A stretch of DNA of 64,000 nt, from contig JAIEMA010000019.1 of the NCBI GenBank assembly GCA_019752535.1, positions 124,001-188,000 on the forward strand, in the 5' to 3' direction. Position numbers and translations under genes: made by a program. Positions 37,199 through 44,021 of this stretch are shown here, one piece after another. This stretch comes from Bacteriovoracaceae bacterium (GTDB taxonomy: Bacteria > Bdellovibrionota > Bacteriovoracia > Bacteriovoracales > Bacteriovoracaceae). Position 1 is the stretch's first letter, and the number at the start of each line of letters is the position of its first letter. The notes under the pieces were generated by a model. It worked only from the letters and a program-made list of their open reading frames with translations. It was not told the origin of the DNA and made no database searches.

Positions 37199-37645
37199 AT
37201 GCGCACCGTGATCAAAAGACTTGAAATCACTCACTTTGAGCAGCTTCAGTTGATCCAGGACGAACAATTGAGCTCTCTCACTATCGCCAATCAAAGCCTT
37301 GCAGGCTCCACTGTACAATCAAGTACTTACACCTCAGTGGCTTTCTCCTCTTGTGTGTTTTACGGTTGCACGTTTAAGTCAGTTACGTTCAAAAATTGCA
37401 CATTCAATGGATGCAATTTCGAATTCTCTCATATGTATGACTGCCATTTTGAAAATTGCAGCTTTATCGATTGCCACTGGATGGCTTCAACGACTCGCCA
37501 ATCTCATTTTGTAGACTGCGAGCTCGATCACACTTTGTCTTCAATGACTGAAGCTCATAATAATGTTTTGCATTTCACATTCGCTGAAACTGAAAGAGCG
37601 AAAGAAGTTCACTCCATGCTCGCGGCCGCTTTTGTGGCAGCCTAA
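37199..37645 (+). CDS. Pentapeptide-repeat-like protein
   Basis: A 148-residue protein whose middle is a right-handed beta-helix-like repeat rich in [FS]xxCxF: VTFKNCTFNGCNFEF, then CHFENCSFIDCHW near residues 60-100. Cysteines occupy the repeated polar positions, giving about ten in 60 residues, which is unusual for cytosolic proteins of this type. There is no signal peptide. The C-terminal part (AEAHNNVLHFTFAETERAKEVH-like region) is helical. A pentapeptide function (for example gyrase protection) is not assignable. RBS GGGGGAGAAAG precedes the ATG. Confidence 0.78.
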   Translation: MRTVIKRLEITHFEQLQLIQDEQLSSLTIANQSLAGSTVQSSTYTSVAFSSCVFYGCTFKSVTFKNCTFNGCNFEFSHMYDCHFENCSFIDCHWMASTTRQSHFVDCELDHTLSSMTEAHNNVLHFTFAETERAKEVHSMLAAAFVAA

Positions 37646-37964: not shown

Positions 37965-38996
37965 TTATCTTTTGACTAGCTGATACTTCCCCTGACTGAC
38001 CTCTTTCAACCGAGTCGCACTCCAACTCTCACTCATCGTTCTCATTGACCATTTTTTCTCTTTCACAAGCTCCGGCGCATGGGAGCGAATAGACTCTGTG
38101 GCCGCTTTTAGGTGATACCAAGGAATAGAAGGAATCACATGATGAGGTAGGTGAATGTTAATATCAAGCCACATCCACTCCATCCAACGAGGAAAACGCA
38201 CGTTAAATGTTCCATCGACTTGAGCGGCAAAAGGCTCGTAAGAATTTTTATCAAATACAGGCGACCCCTCATGTGAGTGATGCATAAATGTCAGAAGCGC
38301 TCCGAAAGTGGTACCGACAATAGCAGGCAGCACATACATAATCACAAACTTCTGAGGTCCTAGGACTGAATAATAAGAACTCAAAAGATAAATCACCGCA
38401 CTGATAGAAAGTATCGAGTGCAGATAAACTTTAAACTTATCCCCAGCTTTCAAATCCATTTGGGGAATTAAGAATCCAAAAAAACCACGTTTGAGCATAC
38501 CCACCCAAAACCCCACGAAAAGTCCTATCGGTGAGCCTGGGCCAATTCGAACTGCTAACTTTTCATACCAAGGAGGATTTTCATTTTCGCGATAAAGAAG
38601 CTCCGGCCAATCTGGATCCATCTTTCTTATTTGTGTCTGACGGTGATGAAAATCATGAGCGGCACGCCAAGCATAAAATCCATTCATAATCGGAAGGTGA
38701 CAAAGAGTTCCTACGACATCATTGACCCATCTCTTTTTTGAGAAAGCATAATGACCACAATCATGACCTAAAACAAAGATTCCAACGAAAGCCAAACCGG
38801 CCATAAATATCAATGGAATTTTCACAATCCACCACAAAGCCCCCTCTGGCACAATCCAAAGGGCAAATTGCGTTATAATCACCATCGAGATCACTCTTAT
38901 AAAAGTTAACCAGGCCATCGTCGGTACCTGAACTCTTTGAGAGGCGGGAATCGTTTTAGCGACTTCAGAAATTGTCTTCAAAGCTTTGTTCCCCAC
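37965..38996 (-). CDS. Membrane fatty acid desaturase
   Basis: A 343-residue acyl-lipid desaturase (FA_desaturase family) with the three histidine boxes that bind the di-iron centre: HDCGHYAF near residue 80, HDFHHRQT near 115, and NIHLPHHV near 285. About six hydrophobic segments place it in the inner membrane. It introduces a double bond or hydroxyl in an acyl chain using oxygen. GTG start at 38996 overlaps the stop of the upstream hydroxylase gene by 19 bases. Last gene of a four-gene minus-strand operon of lipid-modifying enzymes. Confidence 0.92.
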   Translation of the reverse strand: MGNKALKTISEVAKTIPASQRVQVPTMAWLTFIRVISMVIITQFALWIVPEGALWWIVKIPLIFMAGLAFVGIFVLGHDCGHYAFSKKRWVNDVVGTLCHLPIMNGFYAWRAAHDFHHRQTQIRKMDPDWPELLYRENENPPWYEKLAVRIGPGSPIGLFVGFWVGMLKRGFFGFLIPQMDLKAGDKFKVYLHSILSISAVIYLLSSYYSVLGPQKFVIMYVLPAIVGTTFGALLTFMHHSHEGSPVFDKNSYEPFAAQVDGTFNVRFPRWMEWMWLDINIHLPHHVIPSIPWYHLKAATESIRSHAPELVKEKKWSMRTMSESWSATRLKEVSQGKYQLVKR

Positions 38997-39613
38997 AGAT
39001 AATCTTGCGTCGGTTCAACTATACCAAAGTTTCTCGCATCTTTGAATTTTGGATGATGATGACCTCTATGATGCCTCTTCATTTTGCGAGCCCAACCAAA
39101 CGTCATAACCATGTGCTTATCTGAAAGATGCTCAATCCAATGGATCAGTTCATAGAGTCCATACCAGACGGTAAGAGCAAAAATGAAATGAGGAACAAAG
39201 ACTGGAGGGAAGAGATGAGAGAGAGCCCATGTGATGAAAGGGAGATACAGTACAAAATAAATAAGCTGAATCCATGGTGGCATCAAGAGCATGTATACAT
39301 CATTTAATTCATCGTACTCCATGTTCTCTGATTGATAAAAGGTATGGTGCCAATGATGCATTTTATGCGCCCATGCAAAACCAGGAACAATTCTGTGAAG
39401 CATAAAACGATGAAGAAAATAAAGAAAAGTGCTGGCCCAAAATATAGAAAGAAATATCCACAATGGAGAGAGCCAACTCCACTCAATATATTTAGCAGAA
39501 ATAGAAATAGAGGCAACTTCAAAAGCAGAGAATATCAAAAGATGAATTTTAGCTGAATAATACTTCGGTATCACTTTTTGTCTAAAGTTTTTTCGGTAGC
39601 GTTCTAAATTCAT
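38978..39613 (-). CDS. Sterol-desaturase/fatty-acid-hydroxylase family protein (beta-carotene-hydroxylase-like)
   Basis: A 211-residue membrane oxidase of the FA_hydroxylase family. Histidine boxes: HRFMLHR near residue 68, HKMHHWHHTFYQS near 83, HWIEHLSDKH near 155, and KRHHRGHHHPKF near 177, eight or more ligands for a di-iron site. Two to four hydrophobic spans. Its size and box spacing resemble bacterial fatty acid or carotenoid hydroxylases. It overlaps the desaturase by 19 bases and lies 2 bases after the hydrolase gene's start side, suggesting one transcript. Confidence 0.88.
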   Translation of the reverse strand: MNLERYRKNFRQKVIPKYYSAKIHLLIFSAFEVASISISAKYIEWSWLSPLWIFLSIFWASTFLYFLHRFMLHRIVPGFAWAHKMHHWHHTFYQSENMEYDELNDVYMLLMPPWIQLIYFVLYLPFITWALSHLFPPVFVPHFIFALTVWYGLYELIHWIEHLSDKHMVMTFGWARKMKRHHRGHHHPKFKDARNFGIVEPTQDYLWGTKL

Positions 39614-39615
39614 AC

Positions 39616-40392
39616 TTAAGCCAAAGTCATGAGTTGCTCAAGAACATTAGCCTTAAACAGATAGCTTTCATTTGAAATTTGCTTTGAGGTAAAGAGATCC
39701 GAGTGATCCATGGGAATTGTCACTTCTTTTACTTTAAAGCCTGGCATCTCTTGATCTCTTAAGGCGAGAAGACCATCGGTATGATCTCCCCCTTGCCATA
39801 AAATTTGATGAGAGAGCTTGAGAATCCATGCGACTTTATCAATTTCAAACTTTGCGGCTTTAACTGTCACAATTTTCTCTTCAATTAAGTGCCGCAGATC
39901 TACTCTGGTTTCAGCTAAATTTTCAAAATGAGAAGTGTAAGCATCTTTTTTTAATGACCTAAGTCCTGGCCACACAAGGCTTCCGGCCCTAAATGCACGA
40001 TTGAGTACCTTACTCATTTTCACACCAGGACGCTTTTCAGTTATAGTGGCGCCTTTAAAGGGTGGCTGGACACAAAAAACTCTCTGAACAGACTGTGAAA
40101 ACAGAGCCGGATTTTCAATGAGTCCTAAAACCGCTTCGATGCATCCCTTACTATGGCAAAACAGAATAATAGGCTTATTATTTGTGTTCCATAATTTTTC
40201 AATTTTTGAATTCAACTCGGCGACATTAGCCTCAGCTGTTTTAAATGAGTGAGGAAAAAAGATTTTAACATGATTAGCTCCTTGATCTTTAAGAAGCTTT
40301 TCAGTCTCTTTGAAATAGGAAGCCACAAAAGGAAGGGACAGGAATTCACCCAGAATGCCGCCCACAAAGAGATATTGGTATTGATCAAGCAT
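39616..40392 (-). CDS. Alpha/beta-hydrolase-like protein
   Basis: A 258-residue protein. PIILFCHSKGCIEAVLG near residues 80-97 is a nucleophile-elbow-like motif (xHSKG in place of GxSxG), and further segments FFPHSFKT and PMDHSDLF fit an alpha/beta-hydrolase fold with a late histidine. No signal peptide is visible. The start at 40392 overlaps the previous stop by 8 bases. In context it may be a lipase, thioesterase or acyltransferase acting on the hydroxylated lipid. Family identity uncertain. Confidence 0.65.
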   Translation of the reverse strand: MLDQYQYLFVGGILGEFLSLPFVASYFKETEKLLKDQGANHVKIFFPHSFKTAEANVAELNSKIEKLWNTNNKPIILFCHSKGCIEAVLGLIENPALFSQSVQRVFCVQPPFKGATITEKRPGVKMSKVLNRAFRAGSLVWPGLRSLKKDAYTSHFENLAETRVDLRHLIEEKIVTVKAAKFEIDKVAWILKLSHQILWQGGDHTDGLLALRDQEMPGFKVKEVTIPMDHSDLFTSKQISNESYLFKANVLEQLMTLA

Positions 40393-41062
40393 GTTCGATG
40401 TCAATTCTCTCATCCTTGGCCGTGATCATTGTTGCTTGAGCTTTTAAACTCATCGAGTATTTTTTGTACCCTTCATCATAGGTCCCAAGAAGAATATCCC
40501 AAAGAGCATTTGAGTTTCCAAAATTTTTGTCTGGACGCTTTTCATGATGAAAAAAGTGATACTGCTGAATCCAACCTAAATAACCCCCATCAAAAACTTT
40601 ATAATGAAGCAAGAAATGAACCCATTCATAAAAATAATATGTACCAATCGTGCCAAGACCAAACTGAGCGGTCATGGAAAGACTTTGAGTCATAAGCCAC
40701 ATCGGAAAAAGCACTACTGGTGCAATCAAATACACCATGAAAAACCCGGCATTATAGACTCTTCGATCTGACATATCGATGTGATGATAAAGATGAAATG
40801 ATCCAAAAAAATCATGCATCCACTTAAAAGGATATTTACTGTGATAGCCCCAACGGTGAATAGCGTACTCAAGAAAGGTCCACCACAAAACACCAAGAGA
40901 GACAAAAATGGATGTACTTAATATTGTCGAAGATCCAAAATTTGAGATTGAAACCAAATACCAAACTAAAGGAAGTATCATCACAAGAAGATGAACTGGG
41001 TTTCTAGAAGCAAAGTACTTAATAAGCCACGGGTGCTTTTCGACAGTAAATTGAGATTTCAT
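40385..41062 (-). CDS. Sterol-desaturase/fatty-acid-hydroxylase family protein
   Basis: A 225-residue membrane di-iron oxidase. Histidine boxes: EYAIHRWGYHSKYPF near residue 66, HDFFGSFHLYHHIDM near 85, HFLLHYKVF near 150 and HFFHHEKRPDKNFG near 170. The arrangement resembles fatty acid 2-hydroxylases (Scs7-like), which hydroxylate the alpha carbon of acyl chains. It is the promoter-proximal gene of the operon. Divergent promoter region with the + strand hydroxylase gene. Confidence 0.9.
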   Translation of the reverse strand: MKSQFTVEKHPWLIKYFASRNPVHLLVMILPLVWYLVSISNFGSSTILSTSIFVSLGVLWWTFLEYAIHRWGYHSKYPFKWMHDFFGSFHLYHHIDMSDRRVYNAGFFMVYLIAPVVLFPMWLMTQSLSMTAQFGLGTIGTYYFYEWVHFLLHYKVFDGGYLGWIQQYHFFHHEKRPDKNFGNSNALWDILLGTYDEGYKKYSMSLKAQATMITAKDERIDIEHA

Positions 41063-41106
41063 CCTTAAATGATAGCCAGGAATACATTCTCCATGGGGAT
41101 AAGTGT

Positions 41107-41121
41107 AATATTTTCAATATT
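41107..41121. promoter_or_regulatory. AATATT-TTC-AATATT palindrome
   Basis: Fifteen-base inverted repeat in the 95-base divergent region between the two hydroxylase operons. It is flanked by AAGTGTAA and TTACACT, another inverted pair 40 bases apart. Candidate operator controlling both directions. Confidence 0.4.
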
Positions 41122-41157
41122 AAGGAGATCTAGGGCCTTCTCCCTTACACTCATTCT

Positions 41158-41955
41158 ATGGACTTAAGCCTTTTTACCGCTCTATTAGTGATTTTTTTAA
41201 TCTCTAATTTCCTGCTCTTTGCCCTTGGCGGGTGGTGGTTTTTCTATCACTTTTTAGGCCCTCGAATTCCGCACAGAGCGATCCACGAGAAGAGTCCACA
41301 AAAAGCTCAAATAATCAGAGAGATCAAAAACTCTATTTCTACTCAAATTATTTTCTTTATCATGGCCCTGGGTCTCTATTTCTTGTGGAAAGCAGGAGTC
41401 ACTCAGATCTATACCAAGTGGGATGAGCGAGGTATTTTTTATTTTCTCATCACTTTTTTTCTAATCCAAATGGCGCACGATGCTTGGTTTTATTGGACTC
41501 ATCGCTGGATGCATGAGTGGAAGTGGCTTAGAAAATACCATCTTGCTCATCATGAATCTCAGCAACCCACTCCCTTCGCCTCACTTTCATTTCATCCCGT
41601 TGAGGCCATCTGTCATGGATTATTCTGGTATATCATTGCCTTTCTTATTCCCTCGCACGCTCTCTGGCTTTGGGTGTTTTATAGCTTTATGTTTTATATC
41701 AATATGTGGGGACACACTGGTTTTGAGTTTTGGCATAAAGATCTTTTAGTAAAGCCCATTCAGAAGTTTTTGAACACTCCCACTCACCATAACCTTCATC
41801 ATAAATACCATAATAAAAACTACGGCATTTATTATAATTTATGGGATAAAGTGTGTGGGACCAATCACGCTAAATACGAAGAAGAATACCGCGCGATTAA
41901 AGCTAAAACAGAAGCTCATAAGACTTCTCGAATTATGAAAGCGCTAGGACTTTAA
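41158..41955 (+). CDS. Sterol-desaturase family membrane oxidase
   Basis: A 265-residue sterol desaturase (COG3000) family member with the histidine boxes HDAWFYWTHRWMHE near residue 104, HLAHHESQQPTPF near 127, and THHNLHHKYHNKNYG near 205. Hydrophobic segments near 5-30, 65-85, 150-180. Such enzymes hydroxylate or desaturate sterols, sphingoid bases or alkylglycerols. The next gene begins at the base after its stop, so it is in an operon with the acyltransferase. Confidence 0.9.
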   Translation: MDLSLFTALLVIFLISNFLLFALGGWWFFYHFLGPRIPHRAIHEKSPQKAQIIREIKNSISTQIIFFIMALGLYFLWKAGVTQIYTKWDERGIFYFLITFFLIQMAHDAWFYWTHRWMHEWKWLRKYHLAHHESQQPTPFASLSFHPVEAICHGLFWYIIAFLIPSHALWLWVFYSFMFYINMWGHTGFEFWHKDLLVKPIQKFLNTPTHHNLHHKYHNKNYGIYYNLWDKVCGTNHAKYEEEYRAIKAKTEAHKTSRIMKALGL

Positions 41956-42771
41956 ATGTTTAAAAAGAACGTCAACTTATTACCCTCAATGAGAATGACT
42001 CCATGGAGAAAAATCTCAGTGGGATCATGGAAGCCCGTAGGTGATTCACAAGTTTACTGTGAACTGGATCTTGATGCCGAGCCAGCGCTCTTATGGCTTG
42101 ATCAAGCGAACTCTGGATCAGAAGAGAAAATTACGATCACTCATTTGGCAGGAAAAGTCTTAGGTCAAGTTTTAAGAGATGTCCCCGATCTTAACAGTAT
42201 TGTTCGTTTTGGAAAAATCTATCCACGGCGTGATGTGGATATTTTCTTCCACGTGGTGCAACCCGATAAAGATCTCTCGGGTCACGTGGTAAGAAGCATT
42301 GATCTTAAATCCTTAAGTGATGTAGCTCGAGAGTTAAATCGTGGCGCCAAAACAATCAAAGAAGGAAAAGATGAGAGCTTCAAGAAAATAAAAAATAGCT
42401 GGAAGTACATTCCTTCGTTTCTGGCGATGACCGTTCTCAATACCATTGGATTTATTTTTTATTCTTGCAACTTCTACATTAAAGGCGCCGGTGTTCCTCG
42501 CGATGCCTTTGGTTCAATGATGCTCACCAATATTGGAAGCCTTGGCTTTGAAAGTGCTTTTGTTCCACTTCCTCCCTACTCAAAAGTTCCATTTGTGGTG
42601 GCCTTGGGAAAAGTGGTTGAGCGTGTATGTGTGGTCGATGGGAAGCCCGCCGTAAAAAAGCGAGTGAGTTTTTGCTGCACCTTTGATCACCGAATTATCG
42701 ATGGAGCTCATGGGGCAGAAATGGCAAAACTGATCGAACGCTATTTCACTAACCCTTTGGAATTGCGCTAA
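41956..42771 (+). CDS. Stand-alone 2-oxoacid dehydrogenase (E2) acyltransferase-type domain protein
   Basis: A 271-residue protein made only of the trimeric CAT-like E2 catalytic domain. Signature: FDHRIIDGAHGAEM near residue 241 (HxxxDG active site), with LTNIGSLGFESAFVPL before it. There is no lipoyl domain and no E1 or E3 gene nearby, unlike PDH or OGDH. A central hydrophobic segment (SFLAMTVLNTIGFIFYS) is unusual for E2. It may transfer an acyl group to an amine or hydroxyl of a lipid. The gene starts at the first base after the hydroxylase stop. Confidence 0.82.
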   Translation: MFKKNVNLLPSMRMTPWRKISVGSWKPVGDSQVYCELDLDAEPALLWLDQANSGSEEKITITHLAGKVLGQVLRDVPDLNSIVRFGKIYPRRDVDIFFHVVQPDKDLSGHVVRSIDLKSLSDVARELNRGAKTIKEGKDESFKKIKNSWKYIPSFLAMTVLNTIGFIFYSCNFYIKGAGVPRDAFGSMMLTNIGSLGFESAFVPLPPYSKVPFVVALGKVVERVCVVDGKPAVKKRVSFCCTFDHRIIDGAHGAEMAKLIERYFTNPLELR

Positions 42772-42809: not shown

Positions 42810-44021
42810 ATGGTCATACTCTCTGCCCTCTTACTCGTCTTTTCATTCTCAGCTCAAGCGGCAGAGCCAGATATTTACGATGCTTATAACGCCATTTTTG
42901 GTGTTTCAAGCGAGAGTGGAAATATCGCCGTTCAATCTGTCCCCAGTGACCCAGAACTTCTGCAACTCACTGATGGAATTGATGGTCAACTAGAGGCAAC
43001 AGATACTCAAAGCGATTGCTTTAATGGAGTCCCTTCCCCGCTTTCAGATCTCGTGAAGCAACTCGTTCAAGATGTGAAAGATATTGTGACTGATGATCTT
43101 ATGGAAGAAGTGGATGCGCCCCAGTCTGTGGTGAATAAGGCCATTGCTAAAAGCAAGGAGCTTGCTTGTGCAGAGATTATGCTCTTTGTTCAAGTGAATA
43201 AGATCAATGCTGATGTCAACTGCATTAAACGTCCACAGGTTATTCCACCGATACACATGCAAGCCATCAAGTTCCCTGGATTAGCAGAATATAAATCTCA
43301 GATTGAAGAACAAATTGAGAGTTATAAAAAACAATTGGAACAGAATCCTCAAAACTTTACAGCTGACAGTAAAATCAGAAGCCTCACGAAAGATCTTAAC
43401 TGCCTAGTTAATGCCGACTTTGCGAATTTTAATTGTCGCTACATGCATGAAAAAATGTTTTCTCGTGGGAAGTCATCAGTACAAATTGAAATACAGGATC
43501 GAAGTGGCAAATGGTACGAATACAAAAAACTTCAAACTGATTTCTTTAGTGGAAAGCCGGGGCCAAAAACTCAAAAAGGGGATCTTCAAACCCCTGAGGC
43601 CCGCTTCAAACTCAACAGTGTAAATCCCACAAGCAACTATTTCTCCGCTGTTCATATCAACTATGAAGCCTGGAATGAGCGAAACGAACTTCTCGGAGAT
43701 CTCAATCCGACTGGAGTGAACAAAGGTGGAGACATCATGCTCCACGGCCACGCCGGAAGTGTGGGATGTCTTGATATGGGTAATCGTGGTGCACCTTATG
43801 TCACTGCCCTTGTCGATCTGAGCCTCAAGGGTGGCAAGGTTCCAGAAATAGATATTTTTCCCACCGACATGGATTCCGGTGTTGATGAAATCTCGACCTG
43901 GCCTGGGTATCAACAAAATGCCAAGTTTTGGGCAGAACTGAAAAAGCGCTACTGGGAAAAACACGGAGCTAAAGTGAATCGAAGCTTAAAGAGCGTTGAT
44001 GAGATGATTGAGGAAGAATAA
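42810..44021 (+). CDS. L,D-transpeptidase-family protein (YafK-like)
   Basis: A 403-residue exported protein. Signal peptide (MVILSALLLVFSFSAQAA). An N-terminal half without family, followed by a YkuD/YafK-type catalytic domain: DLQTPEARFKLNSV, then GGDIMLHGHAGSVGCLDMGN near residues 310-330 with the catalytic cysteine in SVGCLD. It probably forms or removes cross-links in peptidoglycan. It is the second such enzyme in the window and is much longer than the first at 28.1 kb. Confidence 0.85.
   Translation: MVILSALLLVFSFSAQAAEPDIYDAYNAIFGVSSESGNIAVQSVPSDPELLQLTDGIDGQLEATDTQSDCFNGVPSPLSDLVKQLVQDVKDIVTDDLMEEVDAPQSVVNKAIAKSKELACAEIMLFVQVNKINADVNCIKRPQVIPPIHMQAIKFPGLAEYKSQIEEQIESYKKQLEQNPQNFTADSKIRSLTKDLNCLVNADFANFNCRYMHEKMFSRGKSSVQIEIQDRSGKWYEYKKLQTDFFSGKPGPKTQKGDLQTPEARFKLNSVNPTSNYFSAVHINYEAWNERNELLGDLNPTGVNKGGDIMLHGHAGSVGCLDMGNRGAPYVTALVDLSLKGGKVPEIDIFPTDMDSGVDEISTWPGYQQNAKFWAELKKRYWEKHGAKVNRSLKSVDEMIEEE

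Follow-up and report, generated by a model that had tools for sequence, protein, structure and literature searches.

Four membrane oxidases, a hydrolase and an acyltransferase encoded side by side raise the question of whether they act in one pathway and, if so, on which lipid. The six genes occupy positions 37965–42771 of the window, the 64,000-nucleotide stretch of DNA analysed here, and belong to a 3.49-Mb genome (G000, 97.5% complete) of a bacterium from a family that includes predators. Sequence comparison assigns the genes to enzyme families with their catalytic motifs, places them in tight operons and finds their company again across genera and in a flavobacterium. Together, the products of the six adjacent genes probably introduce hydroxyl groups and unsaturation into a membrane lipid and acylate it anew. 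With good confidence the locus is a real lipid-tailoring unit; the order of chemistry proposed below is less certain. Each part is of a known family, and the novelty lies in the combination; within the part of the literature covered, no title or abstract describes a cluster of this kind or the lipid chemistry it would serve.

Two divergent operons and their enzyme families

The sequence-only reading had placed six open reading frames in two divergent operons, and all six are found where it put them, tightly packed. Transcription on the minus strand runs from H2 through ABH and H1 to DESAT. H2 (40385–41062, 225 aa), a fatty-acid hydroxylase related to Scs7/FA2H, overlaps by 29 bp the lipase-like alpha/beta hydrolase ABH (39616–40413, 265 aa). 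A gap of 2 bp separates ABH from H1 (38978–39613, 211 aa), a divergent protein of the fatty-acid-hydroxylase superfamily, which in turn overlaps by 19 bp the GTG start of DESAT (37965–38996), an acyl-lipid fatty acid desaturase of 343 aa from this GTG or 317 aa from an ATG at 38918. On the plus strand H3 (41158–41955, 265 aa), a sterol-desaturase-type fatty-acid hydroxylase, precedes E2 (41956–42771, 271 aa), a stand-alone E2-type acyltransferase whose start directly abuts the H3 stop at the next base. The 95 bp between both operons (41063–41157) contain no listed sigma-70-like site, and such sites overall barely exceed those in shuffled sequence. The same divergent H2/H3 arrangement is present in G001, G002, G146, G147, G151, G152, G155 and G161. 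The cluster is flanked by a gene for a pentapeptide-repeat protein (37199–37645), which has counterparts of about 60% identity at the corresponding position in G001 and G003. At 42810–44021, 38 bp past E2, lies a gene for a 403-aa protein with weak likeness to the peptidoglycan enzymes YafK/DpaA (43 bits, cut-off 365), which also stands behind E2 in G002 and not in G001.

The description of DESAT, H1, H2 and H3 as four membrane di-iron oxidases is correct by family, and the histidine boxes are complete in each. DESAT scores 122.5 bits against FA_desaturase (PF00487, cut-off 29.7), and 84 and 74 bits, far below the 500-bit cut-offs, against the NCBIfam DesA and DesB models. Against PF04116 (cut-off 31 bits) H3 reaches 99.2 and H2 55.2 bits, both with four complete histidine boxes, and H1 barely passes with 33.6 bits, keeping all four boxes and 50–69% identity with its orthologs. 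At E<=0.001 PF04116 matches eight places in G000, of which H2 and H3 are the two in the cluster; H1 was detected with hmmscan. H2 matches yeast Scs7 (4zr1) with E=5.4e-8 across residues 28–195. Scs7 is also the only structural lead for H1, and a weak one, the structure model of H1 being too poor for use. In a tree of 66 hydroxylases, whose deeper joins are limited by long branches, H2 forms a single clade of 19 rows (support 100/99), H1 a clade of its own with 7 rows (100/99) and H3 is near-monophyletic; H1 is present in 7 cluster-bearing genomes. ABH stays under the Hydrolase_4 cut-off (17.6 against 27 bits) and has an invariant HSK nucleophile motif (S88), D213 and H237 (DHS237); its ortholog in G039 matches LCAT (PF02450) with 23.2 bits, cut-off 21.

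The E2-type protein scores 76.7 bits against 2-oxoacid_dh (PF00198, cut-off 23), and its Pfam and PDB matches are confined to the catalytic domain that dehydrogenase E2 subunits carry. Its AlphaFold model (mean pLDDT 94) matches E2 catalytic cores with E down to 4e-17. Lipoyl and subunit-binding domains are absent, the 271 aa holding the catalytic domain only, and the equivalog models for E2 of the complexes give scores far below their cut-offs. The DHRIIDG motif is retained, and T191, DHR (244–246, including H245) and D249–G250 are invariant across 42 homologs, T191 aligning with the catalytic Ser on the active-site strand of fungal E2p. Residues 140–170 form extra helices, of which the second (154–170) is mostly hydrophobic; they may help with membrane contact.

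Gene company in relatives

A search with H2 through 369 genomes of the phylum, in a comparison set made up mostly of draft or metagenome assemblies, gave two classes of match, about 20 at E of 1e-48 to 1e-115 and about 50 at 1e-26 to 1e-33. Neighbourhoods were read for the first, stronger class, and the loci of the H2 clade number 21 including that of Polaribacter porphyrae. In 17 of these 21 loci H2 has an intact E2-type gene no further than 10 kb away (G000, G001, G002, G039, G151, C30 of G155, G147, G161, G146, G152, G111, G130, G162, G163, G249, G114 and Polaribacter). The remaining four comprise an E2 fragment (C10 of G155), contig ends (G003 and G135) and a set divided between two contigs (G057, with H2–H3 on one and E2–ABH on the other). 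H3 adjoins in 15 of the 21 loci and ABH is nearby in 16; in the flavobacterium P. porphyrae E2 and H2 are adjacent. All 17 H2-linked E2 proteins fall within one group of 27 of the 114 rows of the E2 tree (SH-aLRT 90). Many E2-type homologs have no linked hydroxylase and may therefore have a chemistry in which none takes part, and the neighbours of E2 in relatives include much trpS-type housekeeping or unrelated material. No H2 gene was found on a plasmid. Bins titled Klebsiella pneumoniae (L164) and Bacteriovorax stolpii (L100) carry these genes, labels that may be wrong.

DESAT adjoins the set in G001–G003 and lies 3' of E2 elsewhere (G151/L100 and G155/L244); in these last two genomes H1 sits outside the operon and faces it, whereas in the window both genes are left of ABH. 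That H1 and DESAT rejoin the set in changed order argues for a functional tie. A random gene pair would fall within 10 kb of each other in a 3.5-Mb genome at a rate well under 1%, and with a linkage recurrent in so many other genomes accident can be set aside, even when common descent within genera is taken into account. As H2, E2, H3 and ABH occur together in many relatives, a lipid product of the cluster probably exists. The proposal that a pathway here is dedicated to an unusual hydroxylated lipid is thus supported by a gene company conserved across genera and two phyla, while the link it drew to Bacteriovorax-type phosphonosphingolipids does not hold, as set out below.

The window's cluster is of a type that includes H1 and DESAT. 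A second type, represented by G039/L062, G057, C10 of G155/L245 and G162/L253, has instead a P450, an unassigned 260-aa protein of methyltransferase-like appearance, an exporter and CATx, a protein with an invariant HxxxDG that was not seen near the G057 genes. L062 and L064 have an exporter of MMPL type, L245 and L253 a pair of MacB/FtsX-type permeases; the cluster in the window has no exporter gene. In G130 (L252) a desaturase, E2, MMPL and H2 stand in a row, and in G163 one 557-aa frame (L254:7664–9337) fuses H3 to the acyltransferase-like CATx. Profile comparison detected no kinship of CATx with E2 and CATx has no PDB match, so its label as an acyltransferase derives from the motif. At the second H2 locus of G155 (C10) the E2-type gene (L245:13498–13947) appears shortened, with two permease genes directly behind.

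Candidate substrates and alternative readings

Among the alternatives, ornithine lipids come first. G000 has an OlsB-family gene with an OlsA-like gene downstream (L271), a similar pair occurs in related loci and in G162 and G002 an arginase adjoins it (L272 and L273). Such a pair could make ornithine lipids for H2, H3 and H1 to hydroxylate and for E2 to furnish with a further acyl group, and H3 has a distant match in OlsE, which hydroxylates ornithine lipids. However, H3 scores 19.1 bits against the NCBIfam OlsE equivalog (cut-off 475), the OlsB/OlsA-like pair falls far under its own equivalog cut-offs, and of 19 genomes with the cluster only 10 have a member of the OlsB family, which is found in 205 of 369 across the phylum. 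We consider this reading rather unlikely, and ornithine lipid as an obligatory substrate is rejected on the count of 10 in 19. Between the two genes in G000 lies a 463-aa frame for a PLP decarboxylase (L271:3528–6526 for the whole arrangement).

A catabolic role is a little less probable still. The family includes predators, ABH is lipase-like, and P450, SDR and hydroxylase genes are found in catabolic sets too, so that the enzymes might degrade or remodel prey or environmental lipids rather than build a lipid of the cell's own envelope. Against this, the surroundings of the window cluster showed no recognisable beta-oxidation gene, and the acyltransferase together with the MMPL/MacB-type exporters of relatives points to assembly and export.

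Sphingolipids were the guess of the sequence-only reading, which had in mind the phosphonosphingolipids of Bacteriovorax stolpii. This species has SPT and phosphonate sphingolipids, as reported in PMC6148460; H2 resembles the ceramide hydroxylase Scs7, and 13 members of the family have a BioF/Kbl/SPT-type gene with a distant H2 paralog about 7 kb or less away. The one such gene read fully, that of G006, scores 482 bits against the serine palmitoyltransferase model (cut-off 640). A likely sphingolipid locus of a relative (L260:5420–12923) contains SPT-like, SDR, phosphatase-like and H2-paralog genes. The guess nevertheless fails for G000, in which no SPT/AOS gene was detected, and in the tree the SPT-linked H2 paralogs fall outside the H2 clade. 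At E<=1e-30 neither G000 nor any of four congeners has a BioF/Kbl/SPT-family gene, whereas 23 of the 32 further members of the family that were sampled do, and the SPT of G006 used as a query likewise finds no match in these five genomes at E<=1e-15. At that threshold it has none in 15 of the 19 cluster-bearing genomes, the other four matching at only 28–40% identity. Cluster and SPT locus thus appear largely exclusive, a suggestive pattern from a comparison uncorrected for ancestry. That the cluster hydroxylates sphingolipids is contradicted as far as de novo synthesis is concerned and is highly improbable.

Slightly more improbable again is that H1 and H3 are carotenoid or sterol enzymes. 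H3 is of sterol-desaturase type and H1 is far from both H2 and H3, yet none of H1, H2 and H3 has a CrtZ- or sterol-type NCBIfam match, and G000 has neither a match to the phytoene/squalene synthase family nor a squalene/hopene or oxidosqualene cyclase. Sphingolipids, carotenoids and sterols or hopanoids made by the cell are rejected as substrates, their backbone genes not being found in G000. The notion of unrelated genes that are neighbours by chance is contradicted by co-location repeated over many genera with changed gene orders, and its probability is negligible. With SPT, phytoene synthase and cyclase not found in G000 and OlsB confined to 10 of the 19 cluster genomes, the acyl chains of ordinary phospholipids remain the default substrate.

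A tentative pathway and known systems

The reading we prefer, at somewhat less than even confidence, is that H2 and E2 form the core of a module dedicated to membrane-lipid tailoring, usually with H3 and ABH, in which hydroxylation would precede acylation. H2, which is FA2H/Scs7-like, and H3, joined in some clusters by H1 and DESAT as optional further oxidases, would place hydroxyl groups and a double bond on acyl chains of a membrane lipid. The E2-fold enzyme would then acylate a new hydroxyl, an amine being another possible acceptor, from a thioester donor that is probably acyl-CoA; chloramphenicol acetyltransferase, which belongs to the same superfamily, acts on its own substrate in this way. 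ABH may trim or swap acyl chains. In relatives the product would probably be exported through MMPL/RND or MacB/FtsX-type transporters. Such a module would be independent of sphingolipid, carotenoid and hopanoid/sterol backbones made by the cell. The steady pairing of H2 with E2 and the fusion of H3 to CATx fit this hydroxylate-then-acylate scheme. An extension that we regard as unlikely is that the H2–E2 module makes an undescribed, exported lipid of acyloxyacyl type that replaces sphingolipids in lineages lacking SPT, with the E2 fold serving as an O-acyltransferase of membrane lipids. Were the preferred reading right, it would supply gene handles for an envelope lipid in bacteria of a predator family and in some flavobacteria, would mean that the E2 fold of central metabolism has been reused in lipid acylation, and would make the H2 and E2 pair a marker for finding producers in genomes.

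Several known systems offer partial parallels. H2 resembles the Scs7/FA2H fatty-acid 2-hydroxylases in sequence and histidine boxes, but at 225 aa it has no cytochrome b5 domain and its genome has no sphingolipid backbone genes. H3 is a distant relative of OlsE, at the weak score given above. The bacterial sphingolipid locus of relatives (L260) likewise has genes of lipid synthesis together with one for an H2-like hydroxylase, although H2 sits on a different hydroxylase branch and SPT is absent from G000. Mycobacterial lipid loci combine a PapA acyltransferase with an MmpL exporter, and some relatives similarly join an HxxxDG protein and an MMPL transporter to lipid oxidases; here, in contrast, no polyketide synthase was recognised, the window cluster is without an MMPL gene and the constant partner is the E2-fold enzyme. 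With the catalytic domain of 2-oxoacid dehydrogenase E2 (PF00198) this enzyme shares the fold and DHRxxDG, with Thr in place of the E2p Ser; unlike the dehydrogenase subunits, it does without lipoyl and subunit-binding domains, carries a helical insert and is encoded beside lipid hydroxylases.
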